20,956 nt of DNA from a virus: positions 1 through 20,956 of IMG/VR virus record IMGVR_UViG_3300031801_000033; one strand, 5' to 3'. The notes under the pieces were generated by a model. The model was given only the letters and a program-made list of their open reading frames with translations, had not been told where the DNA came from and ran no database searches. Within the stretch, counting starts at the first letter, position 1. The number at the start of each line of letters is the position of its first letter. The translations under genes were made by a program, and so were the position numbers. Positions 1,046 through 20,956 of the stretch are shown here, in pieces.

Positions 1046-1048
1046 GAC

Positions 1049-1264
1049 TTAACCGCCCCCAACCACGGCCCTCTTCGACAGACGCCTCGCACGAGACGCT
1101 TTTTTCACATCCACTGCAGACGTAAATGGACCCGCTGGAGACTCCGCCCATGACACCGTAATCTTCTTGATATCGTCAGGGGTCTGCAGCAATCTCGGTT
1201 CAATAACGCCCTCTGAACTTTTGACATACACCCATTTCGGGTATGACGGATACTGGTAATCCAT
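1049..1264 (-). CDS. Small hypothetical protein between coat and gp4
   Basis: 71 residues. SD AGGAAG lies 8 bases before the ATG. The N-terminal half (YPKWVYVKSSEGVIEPRLLQ) and the middle (DDIKKITVSWAESPAGPFT) look like a small beta-rich domain. The C-terminus is basic, ending RARRLSKRAVVGGG. No family recognised with confidence; small proteins at this site in P22-like phages are often head decoration or completion factors, but nothing here proves that. It follows a terminator hairpin located after the coat gene, so it and the downstream connector genes would be transcribed by read-through. Confidence 0.65.
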   Translation of the reverse strand: MDYQYPSYPKWVYVKSSEGVIEPRLLQTPDDIKKITVSWAESPAGPFTSAVDVKKASRARRLSKRAVVGGG

Positions 1265-1277
1265 AGTATGACTTCCT

Positions 1278-1316
1278 AGAAAAATACCGGAAGGGAGTCT
1301 CCCCCCTCCCGGTATT
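1278..1316 (-). terminator. Hairpin terminator after coat gene
   Basis: Read on the minus strand, AATACCGG pairs with CCGGTATT, with an inner G-rich/CTCCC pairing, and the hairpin is followed by a run of T (TATTTTT). It sits 14 bases after the coat stop and before the 71-residue gene. This is the expected place for a partial terminator that gives coat mRNA at higher level than downstream connector genes. The structure is seen; the partial activity is inference. Confidence 0.75.
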
Positions 1317-1330
1317 GAGTAACCGTGAAC

Positions 1331-2542: not shown

Positions 2543-2574
2543 AATCTTTACTCACTTGCGCCATTCCTCATGCA

Positions 2575-3645: not shown

Positions 3646-3695
3646 CGTATCTTTCTTACCCTCTCTGCGCAGTGTGCCAGAAAATCTCTACGCTG

Positions 3696-6077
3696 TTAAG
3701 TTCCTTCTCTAGGCCCACGCAATGGCGGTCCAGGTGGAGGCCCTTGTGGAGGCCCTTGTGGAGGCCCAGGTGGAGGCCCAGGTGGCGGTCCTTGTGGAGG
3801 CCCACCCGCTGGTGGAAGTGGCGCTCCACCTGGAGGTGACGACTCCTTGAATGCGATCTTGTCAAAACGGTCTTCGTCACGATTCGATTGCGCAACCTGC
3901 CTCGTGATCATTTGATCCAAGCGACCAATTTCTGTTTGCAACACCTCAGACGCTCGTTTCTGATCAAGATTCGCTAATGCTCTCGCATTTTCCCCTTGCT
4001 GCTTAATTTGCTCTAGCTGCACTCTCGCCTGCAAATCACGCTCCTGGGAAGCTGCACTCGCTGCTAATTCTCGTTCCTTGATCGCAACCTTTGCCCCTTC
4101 CTTCACACGTTGTGTTTTCAACGCCTCCTGCGCTTGCTCGTATGCCTCCATGACTTGCTGCATTTGCTGTTGCATTTGCTGCATCTGTGCCTGCACTTCT
4201 GGAGGAATGACGTTTGGATCCACCTCATCCTGAAGATGCTCAGGGAGACTTTTCTTAAGACGTGCTTCCATTTCCTTCGCCATGGGCACATCCATGTTCC
4301 CAAATAATAAATCGCCAATCACTGGAAACACATTCGGATAGGCTTGGACTAATTGCGTCATCGCATCTACAGCTTCCTGACGGCGCGTTTGAAAACTCGG
4401 CCCCACCGCGACATTGACATCGTACCGACCAACACCTACGTCATACATACCCATGACACCTGGAGGCATCTCCTCCTCTTGCGGGCGATTCCCCTCCCCT
4501 GCAAACACCATCACGCTGCGCGGTCGCTCGTCATCACCAAGAATCCGCAACACACGAGAGGTATCATAAATTTTGGGAATCAAATCCACGAGAATCCGAC
4601 CCACCTGTCGAACAGCCCGTCCCAGATTGTCTAAATAATGACTATTCGCCATCTCATCCTGCTGTTGACGGCTCCGAATCGCACGACCGGACTCCTGCGG
4701 ACCACGCTGGCCTAATGACGCATCATTGAATCCGCCCGTGGCTTTCAAGTCGTTATCACTCTGCGCAATCGCCGCAGTCATTGCCTGAATTGGCGGTTCC
4801 CACGATTGCCGCTGGGGTGGTGGCGCTAACTGCCCACTTAAGCCAGTCTGCTTATATTCCAAATAGGGATAATTCCGCACATTGGCCATCTCCCACTTTC
4901 GTTCATGTCCCGCAAACTGCCCCTCCGCACCCACGAATGGCGCTCTGGGGGCCAGTGCAATCATCTCCGTTTGCGCACTTACCCAGTAGTTATACATCCG
5001 CTGCGGATCTTTACTGTCTCTCACGACGCCACGGTAGTCACGCACGCCATTGATATTGATTTCATCTCCCGTCACGGGAACGATCGGAATATATTTCCCA
5101 GGCCATTGCTGCCCTTCCGTCTTTTCATCATTGCCTTCAAGGATTTCCACGGCATTAATCAGACACCAACGGACGGTTCGCGTCGTTACATCTTGTGTCC
5201 CGACAACTTCGAAACCTCTCGGAACCGTGTCTTTCGGCATACTCTCCAGTTCGCTCGTCAAGATACGCGAACTCGACCCATCACTCATTTCGAGAATAGA
5301 CATCTCTTCGCGTTGTTCGTCAATGTAAAAATATTCCGCGACACGCACATTGCCTTCAGGCATCCAATCAGGCTTCGTATTTCCAATCCCCGTAAACTCC
5401 GATAACCCCGCCAAGGCTGAGTCTGGATACCGAAAGCGGTACTCTTCCGTGGGAATATCCTCCACAATAAAGGCATAGCGTGCATCCGATCCATCAGGGT
5501 TTTGCGTAGATGGGTCGACGTAGACAGAAAACGGATTCGGAATACGCCGAACCTTAATCTCCTGATTCATCGACAGTGGATCCTCGTCTATATAATCCGT
5601 GACAACACGCACGTACCCACGTCCCATCGTGACTTGATGGTCACCCGCCGTGGTATACGCCACGTCGGCATCACTCTTTGTTTCGATGTGACGCACAATA
5701 CCCTGAAGCACTTCCGCAATTCCTGGATCGCCCTCGTCTCCAGTTGGGCTCACTTGCACAGCTGGACGAGACGCGCGTTGATTATTCGTGACCTGACGAA
5801 TAAAACTTGGCATTCGATTAATCGTTAAACAGGGGCGATTGTCCTTCTCTCGCATCGATCGGATATGGTCCGGCCACTGCTCAGACGCTCGAAACCTCAA
5901 ATCTTCCAACATATTCTGGCGAAGCTTTGCTTCAGTCTCTTCAACGGTTCGATAGCGCTCATGCGCCAACGACAGAAATTCCTCAACGTCTTGACGGTGT
6001 TGATCGTCAGGACTCAGACTTTCGTCGTCCTCCTCAACCACCACCTGCTGATAACCACCACCTGTGGGATCTGCCAT
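3696..6077 (-). CDS. Portal protein, P22 gp1 type
   Basis: 793 residues; P22 portal is 725. After an acidic N-terminus comes RFRASEQWPDHIRSMRE, then RPCLTINRMPSFIRQVTNN and QRASRPAVQV, the classic start of the P22 portal family. GRGYVRVVTDYIDEDP and VRRIPNPFSVYVDP follow, and later the YWVSAQTEMIALAPRAPFVG and ATGGFNDASLG regions of the wing and stem. A Gln-rich coiled coil lies at about 630-730, resembling the barrel helix. The dodecameric portal ring is the DNA entry channel and terminase docking site. The last 45 residues are a Pro/Gly repeat (GPPQ/GPPP units), which is unusual. The start overlaps the preceding stop as TAATG, with GGAG 8 bases upstream. Confidence 0.95.
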   Translation of the reverse strand: MADPTGGGYQQVVVEEDDESLSPDDQHRQDVEEFLSLAHERYRTVEETEAKLRQNMLEDLRFRASEQWPDHIRSMREKDNRPCLTINRMPSFIRQVTNNQRASRPAVQVSPTGDEGDPGIAEVLQGIVRHIETKSDADVAYTTAGDHQVTMGRGYVRVVTDYIDEDPLSMNQEIKVRRIPNPFSVYVDPSTQNPDGSDARYAFIVEDIPTEEYRFRYPDSALAGLSEFTGIGNTKPDWMPEGNVRVAEYFYIDEQREEMSILEMSDGSSSRILTSELESMPKDTVPRGFEVVGTQDVTTRTVRWCLINAVEILEGNDEKTEGQQWPGKYIPIVPVTGDEININGVRDYRGVVRDSKDPQRMYNYWVSAQTEMIALAPRAPFVGAEGQFAGHERKWEMANVRNYPYLEYKQTGLSGQLAPPPQRQSWEPPIQAMTAAIAQSDNDLKATGGFNDASLGQRGPQESGRAIRSRQQQDEMANSHYLDNLGRAVRQVGRILVDLIPKIYDTSRVLRILGDDERPRSVMVFAGEGNRPQEEEMPPGVMGMYDVGVGRYDVNVAVGPSFQTRRQEAVDAMTQLVQAYPNVFPVIGDLLFGNMDVPMAKEMEARLKKSLPEHLQDEVDPNVIPPEVQAQMQQMQQQMQQVMEAYEQAQEALKTQRVKEGAKVAIKERELAASAASQERDLQARVQLEQIKQQGENARALANLDQKRASEVLQTEIGRLDQMITRQVAQSNRDEDRFDKIAFKESSPPGGAPLPPAGGPPQGPPPGPPPGPPQGPPQGPPPGPPLRGPREGT
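3723..3803 (-). repeat. 12-bp tandem repeat encoding a Pro/Gly tail of the portal
   Basis: About six degenerate copies of a 12-bp unit (plus-strand forms GGAGGCCCTTGT, GGAGGCCCAGGT and GGCGGTCCTTGT) at the 3' end of the portal gene. They encode GPPQ or GPPP repeats in the minus frame. Because 12 bp is four codons, copy-number change keeps the frame. Confidence 0.85.
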
Positions 6078-6316
6078 TACTGCCGCTCCATGGGCGTGAG
6101 TTCTGCCGCCCGACCCTCAATCAGTCGAAACGCATCACGAAAGTCCGCATTCGTAAAGCCATGTCCCACCCAATGACATCTCGCATGTGAGAGAAACTGA
6201 TCCTGCCCCCCAGAGACCATCGACAACAACGTCGGAAGGTCCACCTGCTGCAAGAGACTCATCACCGCAGACTCCACCATGAGTTTCCGTTCATCCAATA
6301 ACGTTTCATTGCCCAT
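6077..6316 (-). CDS. Small hypothetical protein upstream of portal
   Basis: 79 residues, MGNETLLDERKLMVESAVMS at the start, helical, with one HARCHWVGHGF segment. No family recognised. It starts 3 bases after the stop of the preceding 359-residue gene, with AGGA 7 bases before the ATG, and its stop overlaps the portal ATG as TAATG. The tight coupling on both sides makes the gene real and suggests a late virion-related job, but no function can be read from the sequence. Confidence 0.72.
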   Translation of the reverse strand: MGNETLLDERKLMVESAVMSLLQQVDLPTLLSMVSGGQDQFLSHARCHWVGHGFTNADFRDAFRLIEGRAAELTPMERQ

Positions 6317-6319
6317 CGT

Positions 6320-7399
6320 TCAATCCTGCCCCCGTAAGGTCGAAAGCATGCGATCTAAAATATCAATCTGTTCATCGGTGTACAAGTCCTGACGCCGCAT
6401 TTCATCACGCTCGTCAGGCGACAGATACCCCCGTATCCACGCATCTAACCCGGAATAGTCCCAATAGTCTTCAAATGACCGCTCGTCGTTCCCCCGCCGT
6501 TCCCATAACCGACGATCCTCTTCGAGTTGCGTGACCTCAGGATTAAACTTGGACGGCGTCTGTCGAATCGACTCATCCAATTGATCTCTCAACGCCTGAA
6601 ACTGTGGCGCTCCCGCCCGATCTTCAATATAGTTCCCGTCCGGGTCTTTCGCGCTGAACTGGTGGAGCATGTCGCCAAACAACGCCGCCGCCAAACTCTT
6701 CGGCTGTCCCGTCTCTGGGTCCACGTCGTCCATGCCTTCATACACTTCAATCGATGGGACATACGGTCCACGCCCAGACGTGGCGTTATTCGTCGGAGAA
6801 GCTTGCCCCAGGTTGCCTTCTATCGCCCATTGTTGCATGGTGTTGTCACGTAAATCCTTTTCGCTTCTCGGATCCCACGTATCCCCCACCTCCCAACCCG
6901 ACTTAAACTCAATGCGCCCAAACCTATTGTTCTCGCGCAACCGTTGATTCACCGCATCATCGCGCCGATAATCCAGCACCTGAATCTCAAGGTCTCGAAA
7001 CCGGGGGAACGCCGCATACACCGCTTCCTTCGCGGCCTCCATCTGTGCGGCATCCTGTTCCGGATCACCCGTGCTCTGCACCTGTTCCCCAAAGCCCCGA
7101 TGGCGAATCATGTCCTCTCTCGACCAATAGCGTTCCGTATCTAACGTTTGACCCACCGGAGGCGGTTCCGACGCTGTCACGGCCTCCGCCATCGCTGTCT
7201 CCTCGGCTGTTACTGGCGCATCGCGATCTTGCGCAAACAACCCCATGTGTTGCCGCCCCGACCGATAGTCCATTAATTCATCCATAACAGGGGCTCTGGA
7301 CTGATAGTCCATCAGCCCTCGCGGCGGCTGTGCCATTGACGGTGCAGCGCGATCTTGCGTAAACATCCCCATGCGTCCCATGTGTGGTCGATGCGCCAT
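6320..7399 (-). CDS. Conserved phage protein of unknown function between terminase and portal
   Basis: 359 residues from the ATG that overlaps the nuclease stop as TAATG; an in-frame ATG 12 bases further upstream is the alternative. The N-terminal 65 residues hold two similar units: MGMFTQDRAAP and MGLFAQDRDAP, each linked to LMDY-containing segments. The rest is charged and Trp/Tyr-containing: YAAFPRFRDLEIQVLDYRRDD, GRIEFKSGWEVGDTWDP, PSIEVYEGMDDVDP, AALFGDMLHQFS, and a helical C-terminus FEDYWDYSGLDAWIRGYLS. The pattern (IEF..., IEV..., GDMLH, DA-RGYL) resembles a protein family often found beside terminase or portal genes of podovirus-type phages, whose role is not known to me. Late-gene context suggests a virion or packaging role. 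Confidence 0.8.
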   Translation of the reverse strand: MAHRPHMGRMGMFTQDRAAPSMAQPPRGLMDYQSRAPVMDELMDYRSGRQHMGLFAQDRDAPVTAEETAMAEAVTASEPPPVGQTLDTERYWSREDMIRHRGFGEQVQSTGDPEQDAAQMEAAKEAVYAAFPRFRDLEIQVLDYRRDDAVNQRLRENNRFGRIEFKSGWEVGDTWDPRSEKDLRDNTMQQWAIEGNLGQASPTNNATSGRGPYVPSIEVYEGMDDVDPETGQPKSLAAALFGDMLHQFSAKDPDGNYIEDRAGAPQFQALRDQLDESIRQTPSKFNPEVTQLEEDRRLWERRGNDERSFEDYWDYSGLDAWIRGYLSPDERDEMRRQDLYTDEQIDILDRMLSTLRGQD

Positions 7400-8139
7400 T
7401 AGTGCATCCATCCCATGGTTTCTGTCCCTGTCTGGTAGAACTTAATCACGGGATCATCCTCTGCCGCTGGTTCTGTGGAGAGCCAATTCACGCCAGAGAC
7501 AATCGCGTACCGTGTTGCGTCCATCAAATGGTCGTTCTGTTTCACCACACGTCCCTTGGCGTCCCGTCGATACAGCCGAAACTCTTCAATCCAGGTCTTA
7601 CAGGACGCAAAGACTTTCAGTTGCCCTGTCGACAGCAGCCGCCAAACATCTAATAATCCCGACTCCACGGCATTCGGCGCCACATCCAGATACAATCCCA
7701 TCTCCACATACGCCTGAATCAGTTGCGACCCATCGCTCTGACTCCGTCCACGAGAGGCCGGATCAATCCGGCCTGGAATCCACAACCCGCGTGCGCGAAT
7801 CGCATCCGCATGGACACTTGGTTCTGCCTCTCCCCGCTTATGCACGGCATAGACATACCGAATATTCGTCTCCCGGTCATGGGCAATCCAGACAGCGGCG
7901 GTGCAATTCCATCCCACGTCGAGGCCATAGCCTCGTGCAAAATACGCAGGCACTTCGAAATCATCGACCAGGACATCCGTCTCTGGGACAGGGAAAATTG
8001 CACCCGACCCCAACTGCGGAACGCCCTTCGTTCGCGCTTCACGCTGGTGCGGAGGAATCGACGCAATCAATTCCACCTTCTCTGTCTCTGACAGATGCGG
8101 GACATCGTCCCAATCGGCCATGACTACAAATTTGCCCAT
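7399..8139 (-). CDS. Large terminase, nuclease domain only (split gene)
   Basis: 246 residues matching only the C-terminal half of a phage large terminase. It starts MGKFVVMADWDDVPHLSE, a segment normally internal to TerL just after the ATPase domain, then PPHQREARTKGVPQLGSGAI. RNase-H-like nuclease residues are visible: D74 in YGLDVGWN, D126 in RIDPAS, and D203/D207 in NDHLMDATRY. It would cut the concatemer at packaging. No ATPase motif is present; that domain is encoded about 960 bp upstream at 9099-9962. The gene has its own start and a good SD (AGGTAGGG, about 6 bases before the ATG), so it can be translated as a separate protein. Confidence 0.9.
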   Translation of the reverse strand: MGKFVVMADWDDVPHLSETEKVELIASIPPHQREARTKGVPQLGSGAIFPVPETDVLVDDFEVPAYFARGYGLDVGWNCTAAVWIAHDRETNIRYVYAVHKRGEAEPSVHADAIRARGLWIPGRIDPASRGRSQSDGSQLIQAYVEMGLYLDVAPNAVESGLLDVWRLLSTGQLKVFASCKTWIEEFRLYRRDAKGRVVKQNDHLMDATRYAIVSGVNWLSTEPAAEDDPVIKFYQTGTETMGWMH

Positions 8140-8163
8140 ACGATGCCCTACCTCTTGTTCAGA

Positions 8164-8574
8164 CTACTTCCCCCGACGCGACCTCTGACTAGAGCGTTTC
8201 GCTACGCTCGTGCGAGACGCGCCTGTTTGTCCTCTGCGCGTTCCACGCGTACCCATCGACACTGGAGACCTTCCAGGACTGCGTGTCGCATACTGTTCAG
8301 CCGTCCGTCCTTCATACGTCGGGCCTGTATGCATCTTCCCACGTTTCGCTTTTCCTGGTCCCAACGCACGCCCTATCTTCTTCGCCGCGCCCACCGCAGC
8401 ACGACCATACGCACGAACAGGACGTGTTGCCACTTTTGCCGCACCAACCGCTGCACGACCAATCGCTCTCGCCGGACGCGTTGCGGCTCGTGTTACACCG
8501 GACGCCACACGACGGGCCTTTGAACTTGATGAAGGTTTTTTTCGCCGCTTAATACTTCCCAATAGTCTTGCCAT
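8164..8574 (-). CDS. Small strongly basic, repeat-containing protein inside the terminase split
   Basis: 136 residues from ATG (a TTG 6 bases upstream, nearer the SD AAGGAG, is an alternative start). Composition is dominated by Arg, Ala, Lys, Ser and Gly. Two near-identical units of about 18 residues occur in tandem: ATRPARAIGRAAVGAAK and ATRPVRAYGRAAVGAAK. The remainder is Ser/Thr/Arg/Gly-rich up to SSQRSRRGK. No catalytic motif. Such polybasic proteins usually bind nucleic acid; here a DNA-condensing or head-internal protein is possible but unproven. The stop of the preceding gene overlaps the SD. It lies between the two pieces of the large terminase. Confidence 0.65.
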   Translation of the reverse strand: MARLLGSIKRRKKPSSSSKARRVASGVTRAATRPARAIGRAAVGAAKVATRPVRAYGRAAVGAAKKIGRALGPGKAKRGKMHTGPTYEGRTAEQYATRSPGRSPVSMGTRGTRRGQTGASRTSVAKRSSQRSRRGK

Positions 8575-8589
8575 TTTCAACGTGCTCCT

Positions 8590-8883
8590 TTAATCCGCTG
8601 GACGCAATCCCGCTGGAGGATTCGTCACCAACATTAAACACGGAAGTGTCGTCACCATCATCTCTTTTTCCTGGGTCTCAGGATGCGTCCATCGCGCTTC
8701 TAAGAGAATCCCCTGCTGCCGTAATATAAAATCCGGCACATTCGGGACTTCCACCACCACCTGTCCATCGTGGTAACACGCGAGAATCTGCGGCGTATCC
8801 GACTGCGCCATGACGGAACAGCCAATCGCCGTCAACAACGCGACCCAGAATCCAACGACGCTTCCACATACGAACTTCCACAT
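8590..8883 (-). CDS. Small exported or membrane-anchored protein inside the terminase split
   Basis: 97 residues starting MWKFVCGSVVGFWVALLTAIG, a short basic N-terminus and one hydrophobic helix, followed by CSVMAQSD. This can be a signal peptide (cleavage after VMA) or a poor lipobox (AIGC). The rest, QILACYHDGQVVVEVPNVPD onward, is beta-like with no known motif. The start was chosen at this ATG because GAGGG lies 5 bases upstream and the preceding gene stops one base earlier; a 20-residue upstream extension lacks an SD. Beside the possible holin-like gene it could be a spanin-type lysis component, but this is only inference. Confidence 0.62.
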   Translation of the reverse strand: MWKFVCGSVVGFWVALLTAIGCSVMAQSDTPQILACYHDGQVVVEVPNVPDFILRQQGILLEARWTHPETQEKEMMVTTLPCLMLVTNPPAGLRPAD

Positions 8884-8884
8884 C

Positions 8885-9154
8885 TCATCCCTCGCGTGAG
8901 CTCCCGCGATCCTTGATGACATTCTGCAACGACACGACCGCACGAATCACATCACGAGTCGCCGTATTGACCGCCTCGTCATTCAGTAAATCCTTGTCCG
9001 TTCCCGCTTCAATGGTCTTAAGTAAACTGTCCACCATCGTCACGGCTAACTCTTCCTTCTCTGGACTGCCTCGCCCATGCACAAACTTTTCGACCGATTC
9101 AATGGCCGTCATCACGTAGGGCAACAGCTTCAGTCCAATCGTCAGAAATCCCAT
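8885..9154 (-). CDS. Small protein with N-terminal hydrophobic helix, possible holin-like
   Basis: 89 residues from ATG with GGGAG 8 bases upstream; a GTG three codons earlier is alternative. MGFLTIGLKLLPYVMTAIES is a hydrophobic or amphipathic segment, followed by EKFVHGRGSPEKEELAVTMV and a helical remainder (LLNDEAVNTATRDVIRAVVS) resembling small phage proteins I have seen near lysis genes. Function unknown; a single N-terminal helix with charged tail would fit a pinholin-like or accessory holin protein but evidence is thin. Its first 56 bases overlap, out of frame, with the non-conserved tail of the terminase ATPase gene, suggesting it came with the insertion that split the terminase. Confidence 0.62.
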   Translation of the reverse strand: MGFLTIGLKLLPYVMTAIESVEKFVHGRGSPEKEELAVTMVDSLLKTIEAGTDKDLLNDEAVNTATRDVIRAVVSLQNVIKDRGSSREG

Positions 9155-9962
9155 CCACGTCACTCCCTTCGGGCTCGTCCACCCATGTTTCTCCCGCCAT
9201 CTCAGGCATCTCCCCCTCTGGTAAGCGCCCTCCTGGCAAAAACTCCAACACCAACGGCGTCAATCCCTGTAACGGGGTAAACGTCAACATCAATAAGCCC
9301 CCCTCGAAATCCGACGTTTGTGCCGTGCGTAACAAGCACTCGACGTAAATATCATCCGGTGGCTCTTCGTCCAGCCAAATCCCATGCTTTTTCGTGCCCT
9401 GAAACGCTTCCCGTCGCTGGTCGTAACTTTTCAGTCCAAGCTCTGACAGGCACGGGGCGCCATGTTCTTTCTCCACGTGCTTCACCCAGACGGTCTCAAT
9501 CGCATCCGTGACCCCAGGTTTTCTCGAAAAATGCTCAATCCGATGGCGGGGAATAAATCCCGTGCCAATCGCATTCATCGGACCCATGAGCTCTAATTGT
9601 CCAATATCACGTACCGTTTTTGAGGTATCCCCCACCGACCACCAGGACACAGGCTCCGAAAACCTCCGCCCCTCCCACCAGGACGGATAGTCTCCCGTTA
9701 AATGTGCCGTGGTTTCGAACGCCCCCGCTTGCGTCTTGCCAATCCGGTTCGCCGCAATCATCAGCCGCTCTCTCGCGTGAGACGCAAAAAATGCTTCGTG
9801 TTTCGGATATAACGTTCGACACATCCCGGTATGATCGTCAACCTCCCAGGATGTCACATCGCACGCCTCCGTACAGTCAGGGAAGTACCGATAAAACTTC
9901 GTGCGCTGCCGCGCCTTCAGTAACGCCTGCACTTCCTGATGCATCTCTACTGGGTTCGCCAT
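9099..9962 (-). CDS. Large terminase, ATPase domain only (split gene)
   Basis: 287 residues covering only the N-terminal motor half of TerL. Walker A is at 70-77 (AANRIGKT), with Y52 upstream in LYPKHEAFF as the adenine-motif position. Walker B plus catalytic Glu is GIWLDEEPP at 194-202. The coupling motif LTFTPLQG is at 226-233. These make the packaging motor that hydrolyses ATP at the portal. Homology fades after about residue 265; the last 20 or so residues overlap the start of the next gene out of frame and look like read-through rather than conserved sequence. The nuclease half lies at 7399-8139. The gene starts inside the end of a 72-residue ORF, with only a weak SD (GGTAAG). Confidence 0.9.
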   Translation of the reverse strand: MANPVEMHQEVQALLKARQRTKFYRYFPDCTEACDVTSWEVDDHTGMCRTLYPKHEAFFASHARERLMIAANRIGKTQAGAFETTAHLTGDYPSWWEGRRFSEPVSWWSVGDTSKTVRDIGQLELMGPMNAIGTGFIPRHRIEHFSRKPGVTDAIETVWVKHVEKEHGAPCLSELGLKSYDQRREAFQGTKKHGIWLDEEPPDDIYVECLLRTAQTSDFEGGLLMLTFTPLQGLTPLVLEFLPGGRLPEGEMPEMAGETWVDEPEGSDVDGISDDWTEAVALRDDGH

Positions 9963-10095
9963 ACGGACTTACCGTCCATTCCTCAATCGGTGGACATGTG
10001 CAGTCAGACACATGCTCCTGATGCGTGCTACACCAGAAATCGTCACAGAGCTCACACCGGACCCAGACCGCCCCCTCTAGTGAAACATGTCCCAT
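9877..10095 (-). CDS. Small Cys/His-rich zinc-binding-like protein
   Basis: 72 residues. A cluster of likely metal ligands lies at C14, C17, C22, H25, H28, C32 and C34 in RCELCDDFWCSTHQEHVSDC, a compact zinc-knuckle pattern; PPIEEW follows. The C-terminal 30 residues are low-complexity. The 3' part overlaps the terminase ATPase start by 86 bases out of frame, and the 5' end overlaps the previous gene by 19 bases; the start is therefore uncertain. Function unknown; small zinc-binding proteins next to terminases are common in phages. Confidence 0.6.
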   Translation of the reverse strand: MGHVSLEGAVWVRCELCDDFWCSTHQEHVSDCTCPPIEEWTVSPYGEPSRDASGSAGVTEGAAAHEVLSVLP

Positions 10096-10253
10096 AATGA
10101 GACTTTCTGTTCACCCGTTGCAGCCTTAACCACCGGTTCCATCGTCTTACTGGGCTGTTTCCCAGCATGTGGGTCCGCTACTTCTTTCGGGGGGCCGATC
10201 GGTCCAAATGTAATCACTTCAATCTTTGGGACAGCCTTCTTCCCTTTTCCCAT
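10077..10253 (-). CDS. Small hypothetical protein
   Basis: 58 residues, starting MGKGKKAVPKIEVITFGPIG. The start is fixed by a strong SD (AGGAGG, about 8 bases upstream), which lies at the end of the preceding gene; a longer frame upstream lacks support. It is basic at the N-terminus, then PIGPPKEVADPHAGKQPSK and ends SLWDMFH. No recognised family. Part of the tight chain of small genes upstream of the terminase. Confidence 0.65.
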   Translation of the reverse strand: MGKGKKAVPKIEVITFGPIGPPKEVADPHAGKQPSKTMEPVVKAATGEQKVSLWDMFH

Positions 10254-10257
10254 GTGC

Positions 10258-10989
10258 TTACCTCCTACCTCCAAGTCCAGGGCCACGAACGCCACGTCCG
10301 ACCGATTTCGCCAGAGACGCTCGTCTCTTCGCCCCTGTAGACCTTTTTGCGCCCTGCTTTTCAAGCCATTTTGGTATCATCCTCGTTCCAGAAGGAGGCC
10401 CTGCAGTTCCGCCCCGCTTTTTCGCAAACTCCGCTGTCGCTCTCCCATACTTTTTCCGCTCCGCCATTTGTGCAGATTGTGAAGGAGGCGCTTTCTTTCG
10501 CGCACCAGACGACGGTCTCGGTATCGACTTGGCCATCTGCTTCATATGCGCTGCATATGACCTATCCCGAGACTCCGCTGCCGTTTTCTTTTGCGCAGCA
10601 GACGCTGAAAACCTCTTCGTTGCACCTTTCTTAAAAGCACTGAGGCTACCCGCGTAGTCCTTCATTTTTTGAGACATCTTGGCCCGAGACGCCGCAGACG
10701 CCGGTTTCCGCGCTGTTGGCGCAGCGGCTCGTGTTGCGGCTGCGGCCTTCCGCACGCCTCTTCGCCCACGCGAGAGCGCCCCGCTTGAGAGAGCCGCAGA
10801 GGTAAGTGGGGCAAACCCCAACCCCCCGGCTCCTGTCGTTTTTCGACGCCCGCCAGCCGCCGGACGGCGTGGGCGTGGCGGCCGTAACGGCTGGCTCTCG
10901 GAGAGCGTGCTACTCGCCGGTCGATTCTTCTCTCTCGACGATCGCTTTGCGGTCCGAGGGCCACGATAGGTTCCTAGATTTGCCGCCAT
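10258..10989 (-). CDS. Highly basic low-complexity protein
   Basis: 243 residues, dominated by Arg, Lys, Ala, Ser, Gly and Pro. There are stretches such as RAAAPTARKPASAASRAKMS and ERKKYGRATAEFAKKRGGTA, and motifs KMKDYAGSLSAFKKGATKRF and SYAAHMKQMAKSI that may form short helices. No enzymatic motif. SD GGAG lies 7 bases before the ATG. Composition suggests a nucleic-acid-binding or unstructured protein; with the 145- and 136-residue neighbours it makes a group of polybasic proteins around the terminase genes. Function unknown. Confidence 0.6.
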   Translation of the reverse strand: MAANLGTYRGPRTAKRSSREKNRPASSTLSESQPLRPPRPRRPAAGGRRKTTGAGGLGFAPLTSAALSSGALSRGRRGVRKAAAATRAAAPTARKPASAASRAKMSQKMKDYAGSLSAFKKGATKRFSASAAQKKTAAESRDRSYAAHMKQMAKSIPRPSSGARKKAPPSQSAQMAERKKYGRATAEFAKKRGGTAGPPSGTRMIPKWLEKQGAKRSTGAKRRASLAKSVGRGVRGPGLGGRR

Positions 10990-11000
10990 GGGGAGGCTCC

Positions 11001-11840: not shown

Positions 11841-11900
11841 AACTTTCTGGAACTTCCGGGAAACTCCGGGAAACTCCGGGAAACTCCGGGAAGTGTCTCT
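11841..11900. repeat. 10-bp phased tandem repeats
   Basis: Three exact copies of AAACTCCGGG at 11861-11890 are preceded by variant copies AACTTTCTGG (11841) and AACTTCCGGG (11851), and followed by AAGTGTCTCT and, at about 11909-11919, GGGAATTTCCGG. A 10-bp period is close to one turn of DNA helix, so a protein could bind the same face repeatedly. Confidence 0.9.
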
Positions 11901-12815: not shown

Positions 12816-13124
12816 CTAATTGTTTTCTAATGAACAGAGCTCAAGCCATTGATCGTCTGGTATCTGGAACTTCGAGATAAGTCCAGACTTACCATAGACA
12901 TCCTTGCGAACCATGCAAAGATGCCCATTCGCGATGCTTATCTTCTCGTCGAAGCTTGAACACTGCGTGATTAATTCCTTCCAGCACGATGCAGTTGCTG
13001 CAGTTGCTTCCGTTTCTGTGCTGTATTCACCCATTGGGATAAGCCCAGCAACTGTTCCCAGGATGGTGCCTGGAGCTTCTCCGACCCATTCAAGTATGAA
13101 CTGTGCGTCTGCTTGTGTATTCAT
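12816..13124 (-). CDS. Hypothetical protein, single-gene unit 1
   Basis: 102 residues, MNTQADAQFILEWVGEAPGT at the start; alanine/threonine-rich middle (TETEATAATASCWKELITQC), then SFDEKISIANGHLCMVRKDV and a C-terminus with PDDQWLELCSLENN. No recognised family or motif. SD AGGA lies 8 bases upstream of the ATG. It is preceded by a three-copy cluster of the conserved 23-bp element, which abuts the terminator of the next gene. Its stop faces the terminator of the rightward unit, so it is transcribed alone. Confidence 0.7.
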   Translation of the reverse strand: MNTQADAQFILEWVGEAPGTILGTVAGLIPMGEYSTETEATAATASCWKELITQCSSFDEKISIANGHLCMVRKDVYGKSGLISKFQIPDDQWLELCSLENN

Positions 13125-13190
13125 GCGTCCATCCTACCATAGATTCGTGCAGGCTAGAATCCCTTTGAGCTCGTGGCGATCGCTGGCTGA

Positions 13191-13261
13191 CGATAACCCC
13201 ACCGGAGGTACCGACGATAACTCCACCTGAGATAGCGACGATAACTCCACCTGAGTTAGTG
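13191..13261 (-). promoter_or_regulatory. Operator-like element cluster A (3 copies, 24-bp period)
   Basis: Copies start at 13191, 13215 and 13239, exactly 24 bp apart. The second and third read CGATAACTCCACCTGAG on the plus strand, followed by ATAGCG or TTAGTG; the first is a variant (CGATAACCCCACCGGAGGTA). All point the same way. The cluster lies upstream of the gene starting at 13124 and ends 2 bases before the terminator of the gene at 13314-13727. Confidence 0.85.
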
Positions 13262-13263
13262 AC

Positions 13264-13290
13264 AAAAAAAGGGAACCCCGAAGGGTTCCC
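13264..13290 (-). terminator. Rho-independent terminator with UUCG loop
   Basis: On the minus strand GGGAACCC, loop TTCG, GGGTTCCC, then a run of seven T. It ends the 13314-13727 gene. A second small hairpin (TAGGCG/CGCCTA, 13294-13308) lies between it and the stop codon. Confidence 0.95.
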
Positions 13291-13313
13291 TTGTAGGCGT
13301 TACGCCTAGAGCT

Positions 13314-13727
13314 CTACGACCACTGTCGATTTCCGCGCTTGTCGTTCTCGCCTGCGCGCGCTTCAATCATCACCACGTATTCGTCAGGGCCGTCCGTCTC
13401 AGGCAAGTCGGCAGGGTCAATGCCTCGGCTGTTGGCGTTGTCGACCTCGCGCTGGCAATGATCGCCCCATGCCGTCTTTGCATCCTTGGACAGCGATTCC
13501 GCTAGCGTTTGGATACGCTCATATATGTTCGCAGCATGAGCCTCACTCACGCATTCAACCCATTGCTCTAGAACGTAATCGTTACCCCACCAGCCGCCTT
13601 CCTCCGGCCCTCCGTAGAACTGCCGCACGAGATACAGCGAGATGATCCGTTCCTTGCCTTCGACGATAGGATCAGTCTCGTTGATCCGGACGATTGTTTC
13701 GAATGCTGCAGTAATGTAATTAGACAT
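13314..13727 (-). CDS. Conserved phage protein (YGGPEEGGWW type), single-gene unit 2
   Basis: 137 residues from the ATG preceded by GGGAGG (spacing about 7); a longer upstream frame is unsupported. N-terminus MSNYITAAFETIVRINETDP, then SLYLVRQFYGGPEEGGWWGN at about 30-50, a motif I know from many phage hypothetical proteins, with helical middle EAHAANIYERIQTLAESLSK. The C-terminus (PDEYVVMIEARAGENDKRG) is acidic/basic. Function unknown. It has a good promoter at 13773-13801, operator-like elements upstream and its own terminator, so it is regulated as a single gene. Confidence 0.82.
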   Translation of the reverse strand: MSNYITAAFETIVRINETDPIVEGKERIISLYLVRQFYGGPEEGGWWGNDYVLEQWVECVSEAHAANIYERIQTLAESLSKDAKTAWGDHCQREVDNANSRGIDPADLPETDGPDEYVVMIEARAGENDKRGNRQWS

Positions 13728-13772
13728 TATGCTTCCTCCCAGAAGACTGGTTAACTTGTTATTACTCTTATA

Positions 13773-13801
13773 ATTATACCAATTCCAAAGGGCCTTCGCA
13801 A
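13773..13801 (-). promoter_or_regulatory. Strong sigma70-type promoter with extended -10
   Basis: Minus strand: TTGCGA (13801-13796), 17-base spacer, TATAAT (13778-13773) preceded by TG one base away (TGGTATAAT). Transcript start near 13766, giving a leader of about 40 bases before the ATG at 13727. The operator-like copies at 13853-13903 lie about 50 bp upstream of the -35. Confidence 0.85.
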
Positions 13802-13852
13802 AACAAGTCGACCAGGCATCATGCTTTCGATCAACTCTCTCGCTCCAATTCA

Positions 13853-13903
13853 CGATAACTCCACCTGAGGTAGCGATAAACGATAACGCCACCTGAGGTA
13901 GCG
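13853..13903 (-). promoter_or_regulatory. Operator-like element cluster B (2 copies)
   Basis: CGATAACTCCACCTGAGGTA followed by GCG at 13853-13875, and CGATAACGCCACCTGAGGTA followed by GCG at 13881-13903, 28 bp apart. Located upstream of the promoter at 13773-13801 and directly abutting the terminator of the upstream gene. Confidence 0.88.
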
Positions 13904-13929
13904 ATAAAAAAAGGGCCCCGAAGGGCCCC
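13904..13929 (-). terminator. Rho-independent terminator with UUCG loop
   Basis: Minus strand GGGCCC, loop TTCG, GGGCCC, then a run of seven or more T. Ends the 13936-14184 gene. Confidence 0.95.
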
Positions 13930-13935
13930 TGTGGT

Positions 13936-14184
13936 TTACGAGCGCCGAGGAAGTTCGGCTTGTTTAATGCGTTGATACCATGGTTGCAGTTCAAGCCAAC
14001 CAACATACTCTGCAAACAACTTTGCTTTGCGTCGAGTTTTCACGCCAAGGATAACGCGAACGTCCTCAGAGACGGAGCCATACTTCGAATGTTTTAGCCC
14101 CGTCTTCGTTTCAATCGACAGCGCACACTTCAAGGCTAGCATCCGAGCCTGCGACAGTTGATCTTTGGTATGTAGTATTCCCAT
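13936..14184 (-). CDS. Small hypothetical protein, single-gene unit 3
   Basis: 82 residues, MGILHTKDQLSQARMLALKC at the start, then ALSIETKTGLKHSKYGSVSE and RVILGVKTRRKAKLFAEYVG. Basic and helical, possibly DNA- or RNA-binding, but no family is certain. SD GGAGG is 4 bases before the ATG and sits directly beside the terminator of the upstream gene, so this gene may rely on read-through; no element cluster lies between it and the zinc-ribbon gene. Confidence 0.75.
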   Translation of the reverse strand: MGILHTKDQLSQARMLALKCALSIETKTGLKHSKYGSVSEDVRVILGVKTRRKAKLFAEYVGWLELQPWYQRIKQAELPRRS

Positions 14185-14194
14185 ATGCCCTCCA

Positions 14195-14218
14195 AGAAAA
14201 GGGGCCCCGAAGGGCCCC
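14195..14218 (-). terminator. Rho-independent terminator with UUCG loop, between two short genes
   Basis: Minus strand GGGGCCC, loop TTCG, GGGCCCC, then TTTTCTT. Only about 10 bases separate it from the next ATG (14184), so it could act as an attenuator between the zinc-ribbon gene and the 82-residue gene. Confidence 0.85.
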
Positions 14219-14230
14219 ACTGGGAGAAAC

Positions 14231-14440
14231 CTAACCCAGAACTCCCATAAGGAGAAGCTCCGGGGCACCATACACCGCTGGCTTACCGCAGGCGTCACAT
14301 TGATACTTTCGTGCGTCAGGTTCAGCTGGATGATCCATGCCGCAGTTCGTGCAGTAACCAACATCAGACATGCCCATACCGCTTACGTCTTCCTCCGAAA
14401 CGTCGACGACGGTTCCTTCTTTGCATCGAAAACTAAACAT
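14231..14440 (-). CDS. Small zinc-ribbon phage protein
   Basis: 69 residues from the ATG 7 bases after GGGAGGG. Two CxxC pairs are visible, GYCTNCG at about 28-34 and QCDACGK at about 46-52, forming a treble-clef or ribbon-type zinc site; the end AVYGAPELLLMGVLG is typical of a widely distributed small phage family. Function unknown in that family. It has its own extended -10 promoter, a two-copy operator-like cluster upstream, and a terminator downstream. Confidence 0.82.
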   Translation of the reverse strand: MFSFRCKEGTVVDVSEEDVSGMGMSDVGYCTNCGMDHPAEPDARKYQCDACGKPAVYGAPELLLMGVLG

Positions 14441-14488
14441 GTATTCCCTCCCAGAAATGCTAGTCACCAACTGACCAGCGATGTATCC

Positions 14489-14497
14489 ATTCTAGCA
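14489..14497 (-). promoter_or_regulatory. Extended -10 promoter of the zinc-ribbon gene
   Basis: Minus strand TGCTAGAAT, an extended -10 (TGnTATAAT-like). No good -35 was found at 16-18 bases. The same sequence followed by GGAT occurs upstream of the 14615-15298 gene. Confidence 0.6.
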
Positions 14498-14547
14498 TGA
14501 ATCTACGTGTTAGCGCTAATGCAACGCATCGACCTGGAGCGAGATAA

Positions 14548-14591
14548 CGATAACTCCACCTGAGGTAACGATAACTCCACCTGGGGTAGCG
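14548..14591 (-). promoter_or_regulatory. Operator-like element cluster C (2 copies, 21-bp period)
   Basis: CGATAACTCCACCTGAGGTA followed by ACG at 14548-14570, then CGATAACTCCACCTGGGGTA followed by GCG at 14569-14591; the two overlap by 2 bp. Located about 50 bp upstream of the TGCTAGAAT promoter and directly next to the hairpin at 14591-14608. Confidence 0.88.
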
Positions 14592-14608
14592 GCCGGATTT
14601 CTCCGGCC
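14591..14608 (-). terminator. Hairpin after the Cys-rich gene, no T run
   Basis: GGCCGGA and TCCGGCC form a 7-bp stem with a 4-base loop. It lies 6 bases after the stop at 14615, where the other units have terminators, but there is no T run on the minus strand, so termination may be weak or factor-dependent. Confidence 0.5.
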
Positions 14609-14614
14609 TTCAGT

Positions 14615-15298
14615 TTAGTGTTCTTCGTCACTGACTCCAAACGCACGCCGCCCACTGTGACCGTTGCACCACTGGCATCGTTGACAGGTTGTCATCTTGC
14701 CAGCCTCAACAGCCGCTGGGCATTGCACGCACCCTTTCGGGAGAGGTTCGCCAACCGGGCGCGAGTAGAACGGACGCCATCCAAGCGCGAGAGCCTGATC
14801 CACTTCCGCTTCTGTTCGACAGGACGCCATAGAGAACGCCTTAAGCCAGTCGAGCGAACGCACGCGCCATCGTTGGGTGTAGCTGGTCATATTGCCTTGG
14901 CTCGTCTTCGCGAGTCCCTCCACAAGCCACCGAGGCAGGAACCCCGGATCACCATAGGCGCCAGCACGAACGCCAAGCCGAGGCAACCAGAACGCCGGCC
15001 AGTCTCGACGAGATACCACGCTAGATTGCTTGTGGGCTTGCCATGTCTGATTGGGAGCTCTCATACGCACATAACACCGCGCGCACCCGGCATCCTTACA
15101 CGTTCCCGGCCGACGTTCGCAGGAACCACAGACAAGCACATCGCCGCCGCGATCAATCGATTCATAAGGATTGACCGAAGATACTAAGATCCACAACTGC
15201 GCCATCGGGCCTGTCTTCGAGTTACTCGATAACCCTTGTTGCGGATCGTAGCCTGTGAGAATGGCGCGAATGTTCCGATCTGGCATAGCCTCAGGCAC
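14615..15298 (-). CDS. Cys-rich conserved phage protein of unknown function
   Basis: 227 residues from a GTG preceded by GGAGGGG; an ATG at 15337 would coincide with the expected transcript start and an ATG at 15286 has its SD too close. Features: RAILTGYDPQQGLSSNSKTG near the start, VCGSCERRPG..CKDAGCARCYV, then WLPRLGVRAGAYGDPGFLP, QRWRVRSLDWLKAFSMASCR, ALGWRPFYSRPVG, and a C-terminal VQCPAAVE..TTCQRCQWCNG cluster. This order (N-terminal CxxC, CYV, GAYGDP, MAS, GWRPF, CPA, CxxCxxC) is a phage/plasmid family I recognise; its function is unknown to me. The many cysteines suggest metal or Fe-S binding. Confidence 0.8.
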   Translation of the reverse strand: MPEAMPDRNIRAILTGYDPQQGLSSNSKTGPMAQLWILVSSVNPYESIDRGGDVLVCGSCERRPGTCKDAGCARCYVRMRAPNQTWQAHKQSSVVSRRDWPAFWLPRLGVRAGAYGDPGFLPRWLVEGLAKTSQGNMTSYTQRWRVRSLDWLKAFSMASCRTEAEVDQALALGWRPFYSRPVGEPLPKGCVQCPAAVEAGKMTTCQRCQWCNGHSGRRAFGVSDEEH

Positions 15299-15343
15299 CG
15301 CACCCCTCCAACTAGATTTTCCCTCCCATAACAACATGAATCC

Positions 15344-15352
15344 ATTCTAGCA
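15344..15352 (-). promoter_or_regulatory. Extended -10 promoter of the Cys-rich gene
   Basis: Minus strand TGCTAGAAT followed by GGAT, the same sequence as at 14489-14497. No clear -35. Transcript start would be near 15337. Confidence 0.58.
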
Positions 15353-15400
15353 CGTTCGTGTCTGCACTGCCTAGCTGGCCGGTTATAACTACTGAAAGAG

Positions 15401-15521
15401 CAATAGGTTCCACCTGAGATAGCGACACCTGAGGTATGGAGGTTCTCGTGGATTCACGATAACTCCACCTGAGGTAACGATACCTACACCTGAGTTGGCG
15501 ATACTTGGGCCTGAGTTGGCG
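15401..15521 (-). promoter_or_regulatory. Operator-like element cluster D (at least 4 copies)
   Basis: A variant at 15401-15424 (TTCCACCTGAGATAGCG core), a partial copy at about 15424-15436, a full copy at 15457-15479 (CGATAACTCCACCTGAGGTA then ACG), and diverging copies at 15478-15500 and 15499-15521 in strict 21-bp steps. The last ones overlap the end of the small-terminase gene and encode its repeated QVSPTQ tail. Confidence 0.82.
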
Positions 15522-16074
15522 ATACTTGGGCCGACACGGCGCTGAGTTCGGCGTAGGCCTGTTCAACCTTCGCCAGCTGCTGATCAGACATGGCCTGTAG
15601 CTGTTCTGGGGAAAAATGCACGACCGCATGGACATGCTGGTGCTGGTCTGGCTTCAAGAGTCCGAGATGCCGACACAGCTGCTCAAGCGCCCTCACCTTG
15701 TCCCATGTCTTAATCCGACTAACCTTTGTCACGCCATCCTTGCTGGTGGTCACCTCGATACTCGCGATGGACGCGGCTGCCTCGTCACTGAGCGCATGAA
15801 TCGGCTGAACCGAGCCATCCTCCGCCAAGAGCGCCCGAATGTCGGAGAACGCAATCTGAGCCAGTTCCGCCAAGACATTCTCGGCTCGAATCGACGCTCG
15901 ATCTAACTGCCCTTTGTGTATGCGCTGCACGAGCGCGGCCACCTCGGGTTTTTGCAAGAGGTCAAAGCCCTGACTGGAGGCCGACCGTGCATTATAGCCA
16001 GCACGAACAGCTGCCTGTGTACAATTCAGATCCACGCAGTATTCATTGGCAAATCGCCGTTGTTTGTCATTCAT
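15484..16074 (-). CDS. Terminase small subunit (Terminase_2-like)
   Basis: 196 residues. MNDKQRRFANEYCVDLNCTQ followed by AAVRAGYNARSASSQGFDLL is the typical helix-turn-helix start of the Terminase_2 small-subunit family, then KPEVAALVQRIHKGQ and a central AELAQIAFSDIRALL. It binds the packaging start site and recruits TerL to the DNA. The C-terminal tail QVSPTQAQVSPTQV is made of a 7-residue repeat encoded by the 21-bp operator-like units, so the tail probably evolved from them. Only a weak SD (GGGATGA) precedes the ATG. It is separated from TerL by about 5.5 kb of other genes, unlike P22 where TerS and TerL are adjacent. Confidence 0.9.
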   Translation of the reverse strand: MNDKQRRFANEYCVDLNCTQAAVRAGYNARSASSQGFDLLQKPEVAALVQRIHKGQLDRASIRAENVLAELAQIAFSDIRALLAEDGSVQPIHALSDEAAASIASIEVTTSKDGVTKVSRIKTWDKVRALEQLCRHLGLLKPDQHQHVHAVVHFSPEQLQAMSDQQLAKVEQAYAELSAVSAQVSPTQAQVSPTQV

Positions 16075-19753: not shown

Positions 19754-20058
19754 AGTCCTTCCTTGTGTAATTGGAGCGCCCATGCCACAGCGGCCTCGAC
19801 ACTGCGCAAGACCACGACCGGAGCGCCTGTCCATGTCGCGACAAACGTTTGCTGATCAGGTGTCAGCTTTTGCGCAGACGGTACCTTTGCCCCATCCTTG
19901 ACTTCGATTAAGTACGTCACGCCATGAATGCCGCAAATGAGGTCTGGAATTCCATTGCCCTGACCAGCCAATGACCTGATACTGACCCCTGGCACTGAGC
20001 GAAGGGCTGCAATAATGACACTCTGGTTCCGATCAACCTTCGCGGCTCGACGCATCAT
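19741..20058 (-). CDS. VRR-NUC / PD-(D/E)XK nuclease-like protein
   Basis: 105 residues (a second ATG follows directly). RNQSVIIAALRSVPGVSIRS at 10-29, NGIPDLICG with D39, LIEVKDG with E52 and K54, and SAQKLTPDQQTFVATW at 61-76 together form the D...ExK core and downstream Q of the VRR-NUC-type nuclease fold. In phages such small nucleases act on branched DNA or replication intermediates. SD GAGAGG precedes the start. It overlaps both neighbours, so operon expression is likely. Confidence 0.82.
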   Translation of the reverse strand: MMRRAAKVDRNQSVIIAALRSVPGVSIRSLAGQGNGIPDLICGIHGVTYLIEVKDGAKVPSAQKLTPDQQTFVATWTGAPVVVLRSVEAAVAWALQLHKEGLCRK

Positions 20059-20311
20059 CAACCTCTCGCACGAGACAAAAGTCTGTACCAGACTCATCAG
20101 GGATGTAACGATACTCCGAGATGGACTTCCCTTTGACCTTGCGCTGACGATTATCTATGGTCATGCCAAGCTGACGCCGACAATCAGACACTCTGGTGCG
20201 CCAAGCATACTCACCGCCGACACGTTGGAGCTCTCGTCCATCGACCCATTCGTGAGGACGTGACCGAAAGTAACTGGCTAGCTTCTCAACCATACGTGTT
20301 TTGGGTGCCAT
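20033..20311 (-). CDS. Winged-helix DNA-binding protein
   Basis: 92 residues from ATG with GGAG 9 bases upstream; a longer start at 20377 overlaps the upstream stop by 8 bases and is possible. KLASYFRSRPHEWVDGRELQ followed by GEYAWRTRVSDCRRQLGM is a helix-turn-helix unit with recognition helix AWRTRVSDCRRQLGM, and SISEYRYIP is the wing. The pattern is common in small phage winged-helix proteins. It may regulate or assist the nuclease and replication genes beside it. Confidence 0.78.
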   Translation of the reverse strand: MAPKTRMVEKLASYFRSRPHEWVDGRELQRVGGEYAWRTRVSDCRRQLGMTIDNRQRKVKGKSISEYRYIPDESGTDFCLVREVDDASSREG

Positions 20312-20369
20312 CGAACGCTTCTCCACTGGGCCAAACGCCTGCGTCGGATCAAAGACCGGAACTGACCGT

Positions 20370-20675
20370 CTATACATGGGTTCCCCGTGTTCTCCCCGCT
20401 ACGGGATCAGTCGAATCTATACGATTCCACCGCCCTTTGCGCTGGAACCCCCACGCACAACACCCTGACGCATGACACGATGCCGTCACCACAACGAAGG
20501 GCACATACGTAAAGTGCATATTGGGAGCCGTCACTTGTCGAACCGTCTCAATGGTGAGGGGATGCCCACGATCGCAACAGGCGTCAGGAAATCCAGCAGC
20601 AGAGAGCGGGGAGCCACGGAGAGGTTCATCGGCCTCTATCTCCTCTAAAAATAAGTGTCGTTGTACCTCCACCAT
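20370..20675 (-). CDS. Hypothetical protein
   Basis: 101 residues from ATG, preceded by a G-rich stretch (GGGGTGG) that also belongs to a tandem repeat; a longer upstream frame runs through the repeats and is not favoured. MVEVQRHLFLEEIEADEPLR, then FPDACCDRGHPLTIETVRQV and ASCHASGCCAWGFQRKGRWN with several cysteines and histidines that could bind zinc. Function unknown. Confidence 0.6.
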   Translation of the reverse strand: MVEVQRHLFLEEIEADEPLRGSPLSAAGFPDACCDRGHPLTIETVRQVTAPNMHFTYVPFVVVTASCHASGCCAWGFQRKGRWNRIDSTDPVAGRTRGTHV

Positions 20676-20678
20676 AGC

Positions 20679-20766
20679 CACCCCTATCTCCACCTTTCGC
20701 CACCCTAATCTCCACCTTTCGCCCCCACTACCTCCACCTTTCGCCCCCACTACCTCCGCCTTTCGC
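20679..20766 (-). repeat. Four 22-bp tandem repeats
   Basis: Units 20679-20700, 20701-20722, 20723-20744 and 20745-20766, each ending in CTCCACCTTTCGC (last copy CTCCGCCTTTCGC). On the minus strand each carries GCGAAAGGTGGAG. They lie just upstream of the gene starting at 20675. Confidence 0.92.
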
Positions 20767-20956
20767 CCTCCTGGCCTCCGCATTGCAGTCGGCATTGCAG
20801 TGCATTGCAGTGGCAATAAAGACGGGGGTAAATTGATTGCAGTCGGCATTGCAGTGGATTGCAGTGACTTCTACGCAATCGATACACCAGCAGAGAGGTC
20901 AATCGTTGCACCGGAATATCGAAGAATTCGAAGCGCACGCCGTTGTGCGTTCGGCA
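20750..20956 (-). CDS. Possible C-terminal end of a gene entering from the right edge
   Basis: Open minus frame from the window edge to a stop at 20750, with the stretch NGVRFEFFDIPVQRLTSLLV before a Cys/Leu-rich part (CNPLQCRLQS and CNALQCRLQC) that comes only from the ATTGCAGT repeats. The real protein probably ends in or just before the repeats. Start and identity are outside the window. Confidence 0.35.
   Translation of the reverse strand, partial: CRTHNGVRFEFFDIPVQRLTSLLVYRLRRSHCNPLQCRLQSIYPRLYCHCNALQCRLQCGGQEGERRR
20782..20865. repeat. Six ATTGCAGT repeats in two identical triplets
   Basis: ATTGCAGT starts at 20782, 20794, 20804 and again at 20836, 20848, 20858; both triplets have 12- then 10-bp spacing and are offset by 54 bp. 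A short less repetitive stretch (CAATAAAGACGGGGGTAAAT) lies between. Iteron- or operator-like. Confidence 0.92.

Follow-up and report, generated by a model that had tools for sequence, protein, structure and literature searches.

About a dozen copies of a 23-base site, all in one direction, precede four accessory units of an uncultivated phage

What role does a short sequence play that recurs, always in the same direction, in front of one small accessory unit after another? This question is raised by the IMG/VR virus record IMGVR_UViG_3300031801_000033, which we analysed over its whole length of 20,956 bases (hereafter, the window). The record is probably a genome fragment; it codes for a P22-type coat protein, a portal, terminase subunits and many orphan genes, and four small accessory transcription units (units A to D) sit between its terminase small- and large-subunit genes. 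About a dozen copies of a 23-base site, all in one direction, lie before these four units. Judging from the sequence features described below, the element is real and specific and in all likelihood regulatory. A more particular reading, to which we give about an even chance, is that it serves as the binding site of a homodimeric phage regulator, most likely an activator of the four units.

When the window was searched with the 20-mer CGATAACTCCACCTGAGGTA at three or fewer mismatches, eight copies were found, at 13191, 13215, 13239, 13853, 13881, 14548, 14569 and 15457, all on the + strand, while 100 dinucleotide shuffles gave 0 matches at this threshold. A ninth copy is located at 15478, weaker or partial copies at 15402, 15417 and 15499, and a degenerate one also at 15520. 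An earlier note on this DNA had described at least nine clear copies in four clusters and a single orientation, with tandem spacings of 21, 24 or 28 bp, and both statements were confirmed. A weight-matrix scan of both strands of the whole record, a check that the same note had proposed, revealed no comparable copy outside the four gaps; the element is neither scattered nor present in both orientations. All copies are on the + strand and all units are leftward, and the orientation thus correlates with the direction of transcription, as in cluster A stoperators.

The surroundings of the clusters required some adjustment of that description. The copies had been placed in intergenic space upstream of leftward genes, which is correct except that 15484-15532 is coding, being the 3' end of the gene for the terminase small subunit. 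Three clusters indeed adjoin the hairpin of the preceding gene, with cluster/hairpin borders at 13261/13269 (D), 13903/13911 (C) and 14591/14591 (B), and only the D and C hairpins carry a T-run. The units had also been taken to consist of single genes; however, the unit that starts at 14440 (unit B) has two, because 13936-14184 has a preceding hairpin and a ribosome-binding site but no element.

The alignment of the eight copies showed that the unit is a 23-bp dyad in a 9-5-9 arrangement, CGNTANCTC-N5-GAGNTANCG, with the arms around CACCT. Complementary cells in the arms numbered 53 of 72; when the columns were shuffled 20,000 times, 23 of the shuffles gave at least as many. In the consensus, seven of the nine arm pairs match, and the mismatched pairs are 3/21 and 6/18; columns 18 and 21, which vary more than any others, both belong to these pairs. 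Columns 1-7, 9-13, 15, 17, 19, 20 and 23 are invariant. Given that symmetric positions are kept and asymmetric ones are free on one side, the pattern is the one expected of a homodimer site. The small central palindrome ACCTNAGGT that had first been noticed is broken in five of nine copies, and the larger dyad, whose centre lies 3 bp away, fits better.

The clusters also stand at a near-fixed distance from putative promoters. The promoters called for units A, B and D have a nearly identical extended -10 and share TGSTAGRATGGAYNCAT, of which the record contains just three perfect copies, all of them below a cluster. Their -35 hexamers match TTGACA at four (A), three (B) and two (D) of six positions, and that of promoter C at four of six. 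The distance between the centres of the nearest copy and of the -10 hexamer is 66.5 bp in A, 67.5 bp in B, 68.5 bp in D and 88.5 bp in C, so that the spacing of unit C exceeds the others by two helical turns. Because the linkers (49, 50, 51 and 71 nt) are no more similar to each other than shuffled sequences, the spacing has been preserved and the sequence not. Simulation put the chance of such spacing at about 6e-4 with all four clusters included and at 0.009 when A was left out; both values are post hoc, and the distances number only four. Measured from the inferred transcription start, the centre of the nearest copy lies about 77 bp upstream in A, B and D and about 98 bp upstream in C. The called -10 hexamer ends 6 nt ahead of the ATG on the - strand in A (15337) and D (13124), and leaderless transcripts are therefore possible.

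These features suggest a mechanism in which a phage-encoded homodimer would bind the tandem dyads on one face of the helix and recruit host RNA polymerase to the promoter about 50 bp downstream. The tandem copies would give cooperative binding, the terminator would insulate each unit, and the regulator would switch on the four units together. Protein binding, the dimer state and phage origin of the protein, promoter use and activation are all steps that we infer from the sequence. The suggestion in the earlier note of a phage regulon of regulator sites is upheld to the extent that it agrees with the dyad, the phased promoter spacing, the promoter motif in three of four units and the absence of the element elsewhere in the record. 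Several points weigh against activation by a phage dimer. No regulator gene was found; 20033-20377 was proposed as a guess only, and neither Pfam and NCBIfam nor the solved structures gave it a match. The figures for the spacing were calculated post hoc, and the proximal copy in A is only partial. The promoters are sequence-based calls, of which B and D were called only by their likeness to A, and promoter C is different and near-consensus. In addition, where the spacing is 24 or 28 bp, the distal copies are out of helical phase with the proximal one.

As the main alternative, the same sites could be the operators of a repressor or silencer, either an immunity repressor or an early-to-late shut-off factor, which we regard as possible but somewhat unlikely. 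Tandem dimers might then silence by oligomerising or by looping to the promoter, or might stop upstream read-through, and the position of two clusters directly after a terminator would suit such a role. The dyad and tandem copies are just as compatible with a repressor, and phage-wide repeats before small genes are repressor sites in cluster A mycobacteriophages (PMC9283540) and in SPbeta, where MrpR binds SPBRE (PMC10516654). However, the centre of the nearest copy lies about 67 bp above the -10, past the usual reach of simple occlusion, and the A, B and D promoters with their poor -35 hexamers would be weak unaided. Sequence cannot settle the choice between activator and repressor; an activator is favoured as most likely because of the -77/-98 position and the apparently poor -35 hexamers. 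The one-directional stoperators that the earlier note had offered as an option are not favoured, since the element is a 23-bp dyad, as opposed to a 13-bp asymmetric site for a monomer, and sits between a terminator and the next promoter, not downstream of a promoter.

Another option raised there, module boundaries, would make the copies homologous-recombination sites for the exchange or duplication of single-gene cassettes, with no direct effect on transcription. Every cluster does lie at a unit boundary, the unit genes are mutually unrelated and patchy, and gene insertions in cluster M phages bring a CR3 copy with them (PMC7953290), whereas neither the dyad symmetry nor a near-fixed promoter distance across unrelated linkers is predicted by recombination. 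We consider this reading improbable as the main explanation; it is compatible with regulation, could hold in addition, and may describe a by-product. Action at the RNA level, in which tandem copies pair in leftward read-through transcripts and aid termination, processing or stability, appears very improbable. Folding is stronger than in shuffled sequence for clusters C and D (z -4.8 and -3.0) and a terminator directly precedes two clusters, but for A and B it is not (z -1.5 and -1.2), the pairing varies by cluster, folding is an expected by-product of a near-palindromic direct repeat, and the promoter spacing would stay unexplained. Least probable of all is a function as packaging sites bound by the terminase small subunit or as iterons of a replication origin. 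Although one cluster extends into the terminase small-subunit gene at its 3' end and 21-bp direct repeats are iteron-like, the clusters do not form a single array: they are distributed over 2.3 kb, and each of the four gaps that contain them lies above a promoter. No initiator gene was identified for iterons, and the element is missing from three relatives whose terminase small-subunit gene is complete and which have a different, 10-bp array.

The 10-bp-unit arrays, of the TTCCCGGAGT/TTCCCGGAAT type, are found at window 11855-11892, L116 418-486, L118 900-1190 and L122 13026-13095, in several cases followed by purine-rich GAACAGAA-like repeats. In the window, the array is flanked by the genes for the terminase small and large subunits. 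It follows the small-subunit gene in the three relatives (G003, G004 and G006), for which the complete gene and its downstream flank are available; G010 was left out because its contig ends within the gene. This array is a better candidate for a packaging site than the 23-bp element. In cluster A, the copies at 15478, 15499 and 15520 become increasingly degenerate as they run into the terminase small-subunit gene at its 3' end, where they encode the last heptads, AQVSPTQAQVSPTQV. The alignments with relatives stop before the AQVSPTQAQVSPTQV tail, and the tail therefore looks derived from the element array. As a general explanation, a translated heptad repeat was rejected: copies 28 bp apart are not in the same reading frame, and the majority of copies are extragenic. 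Separately, we observed that the terminase small-subunit gene of G003 also ends within a tandem repeat, with the 13-bp unit TTCTCCGACGTAA (L116 580-640), and that exact or one-mismatch copies of TTCTCCGACGTAA are confined to this stretch within the G003 record.

The features of the region are listed in Table 1.

Table 1. Element clusters, neighbouring hairpins, called promoters and genes of the four accessory units (window coordinates)
Feature	Position	Strand	Remarks
Cluster D	13191..13261	+	three tandem copies (13191, 13215, 13239), 24-bp spacing; gene start 13124 (leftward)
Cluster C	13853..13903	+	two copies (13853, 13881), 28-bp spacing; gene start 13727 (leftward)
Cluster B	14548..14591	+	two copies (14548, 14569), 21-bp spacing, common CG; gene start 14440 (leftward)
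Cluster A, promoter-proximal	15402..15439	+	two partial copies (15402, 15417); promoter-side half of 15402 degenerate
Cluster A, distal	15457..15532	+	full copy 15457, weaker 15478, degenerate 15499 and 15520; 21-bp spacing
Terminator-like hairpin with T-run	13269..13292	-	of gene ending 13314; adjoins cluster D
Terminator-like hairpin with T-run	13911..13930	-	of gene ending 13936; adjoins cluster C
Hairpin	14591..14608	-	after gene ending 14615; adjoins cluster B; without T-run on leftward strand
Putative promoter A, extended -10 TGCTAGAATGGATTCAT	15336..15352	-	-10 hexamer 15344-15349
Putative promoter B, extended -10 TGCTAGAATGGATACAT	14481..14497	-	-10 hexamer 14489-14494
Putative promoter C, TTGCGA-17-TATAAT	13773..13801	-	unlike A, B and D
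Putative promoter D, extended -10 TGGTAGGATGGACGCAT	13123..13139	-	-10 hexamer 13131-13136
Unit A gene	14615..15337	-	240 aa, phrog_2554, Cys-rich
Unit B first gene	14231..14440	-	69 aa, zinc-ribbon-like (under Pfam cut-off)
Unit B second gene	13936..14184	-	82 aa, phrog_19182; no element of its own
Unit C gene	13314..13727	-	137 aa, phrog_24642
Unit D gene	12816..13124	-	102 aa, no family found
Terminase small subunit	15484..16074	-	C-terminal AQVSPTQAQVSPTQV encoded by degenerate element copies

The genes of the four units are mutually unrelated and patchily distributed. Homologues of the unit A gene were found in Mycobacterium, Gordonia, Klebsiella and other phages, and the unit C gene has homologues among Gordonia and Mycobacterium phages; the predicted structure of the unit A protein was of low confidence, and a fold search with it gave no informative match. 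In Gordonia phage Ronaldo and Mycobacterium phage Diminimus (L146 and L147), the unit A/C homologues sit in runs of small genes, where many gaps are about 80-100 bp long with a conserved ribosome-binding stretch and many contain an inverted repeat, as judged by eye. In the relative G003, the phrog_2554 gene also comes after the terminase small subunit, and the 13-bp and 10-bp repeats that precede it are of other sequence.

The element was sought beyond the window by sequence-based searches, which diverged forms could escape, and the collection scans may omit records very near the window. Among 20 related virus records, a search that the earlier note had also called for, no array and only a single match with three mismatches was found. 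An IMG/VR scan with the 16-mer core gave ten matches, all single copies, and IMG/VR scans for tandem cores gave no tandem array; the matches that we read, like those from a promoter-motif scan of other viral contigs, look like coding repeats or chance. The relatives did not yield the promoter motif either. A DNA-level search of phages and plasmids did not match the element, and Rfam returned one unrelated match, well under the cut-off. Likewise, when nine viral contigs with phrog_2554 homologues were examined for direct repeats upstream of these genes, no tandem array was present, and a search for a viral contig with the unit C gene found none. Contig L031, which is 99.7% identical to window 1-10997, extends the record leftward by 6.3 kb; the element is absent from this extension, whose long reading frames resemble structural genes. 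In the closest relatives other than L031, the portal is 65-73% identical at the protein level, and genome contigs with related portals belong to mixed, mostly metagenomic, bins, from which no host was established.

Other features of the record were noted along the way. The terminase large subunit is encoded by two genes, an ATPase part and a nuclease part (window 9099-9962 and 7399-8139, - strand), separated by about 1 kb with small genes. The split is also present in the relatives G003, G006 and G010 (L117, L119 and L120) with inserts of different sizes; in EBPR podovirus 1 the gene is undivided. Near its right end, the record carries a 22-bp tandem array of about 4.8 copies (window 20664-20768) and ATTGCAGTCGGC-type repeats at 20780-20866.

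The sequence and geometry of the element are new, and such an arrangement is already known in phages. In cluster M mycobacteriophages (Estes, Aziz and relatives), CR3/CR4 repeats stand between many small genes with stem-loops upstream, and insertions carry a copy (PMC7953290). The likeness lies in the architecture only: small genes are parted by a stem-loop and a repeat, and in three of the four gaps here a hairpin is followed by a cluster, whereas the present element is a tandem 23-bp dyad of unrelated sequence, about 50 bp above the promoter. The unit A homologue stands in a repeat-separated array of Diminimus, a Bongovirus. However, the conserved CACGGAGAAGGGA-type sequence of Diminimus is at the ribosome-binding site, directly before the ATG, whereas our element lies above the promoter. 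Extended start-associated sequences (ESAS) of cluster K are phage-specific imperfect inverted repeats before small non-structural genes, mostly in one orientation and near putative promoters, and a stem-loop precedes some ESAS units (PMC3203893, PMC11373665). The element resembles them in its intergenic position, small accessory genes, single orientation, promoter association and stem-loop. It differs in having 9-bp arms, a 5-bp spacer and tandem copies, as opposed to arms of 15-17 bp and a spacer of 12-14 bp; moreover, the ESAS inverted repeat contains the promoter, whereas the dyad centres here are 66.5-88.5 bp from the -10. No 13-bp start-associated sequence (SAS), GGGATAGGAGCCC, was seen a few bases before the start codon when all likely starts were considered.

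Operators and stoperators of cluster A phages (L5, TipsytheTRex) occur in many copies, in one orientation with respect to transcription, in short intergenic gaps (PMC9283540). They are 13-bp asymmetric sites, bound by a monomer and distributed genome-wide, in contrast to a 23-bp dyad limited to four gaps above promoters. SPBRE is found in the promoter regions of about ten phage genes, most of them without a known function, and the sequence had been noticed long before the protein that binds it was discovered (PMC10516654). It is a 15-bp motif for a repressor in a Bacillus prophage, and the description used here mentions neither tandem clusters nor fixed promoter spacing for it.

The phi29 site at promoter A3 is centred near -82. 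There, a p4 dimer on imperfect inverted repeats activates a promoter with a poor -35 (PMC3100819). The phi29 genome has four such sites between two promoters, whereas here each of the four promoters has its own tandem cluster, of unrelated sequence.

A broader reading, which we put forward as rather unlikely, is that terminator-operator-promoter cassettes with unrelated repeats arose independently in phages that are not related to each other, around families of small genes that these phages partly share; the phages are the present P22-coat-type phage, cluster M mycobacteriophages and Gordonia phage Ronaldo. A phage-specific repeat with a dedicated regulator would then be a recurrent means of controlling newly acquired genes, with operator copies here also lying in the coding tail of the terminase small subunit.

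Taken together, the four units would make up an orphan regulon of an uncultivated phage. Its geometry, a tandem dyad at about -77/-98 above promoters with poor -35 hexamers, lends itself to direct testing, and the element could be used as bait for its regulator. Two of the unit gene families are tied to the arrays of repeat-separated genes in actinophages, which suggests that arrays of this kind may be a recurrent form of accessory-gene control.

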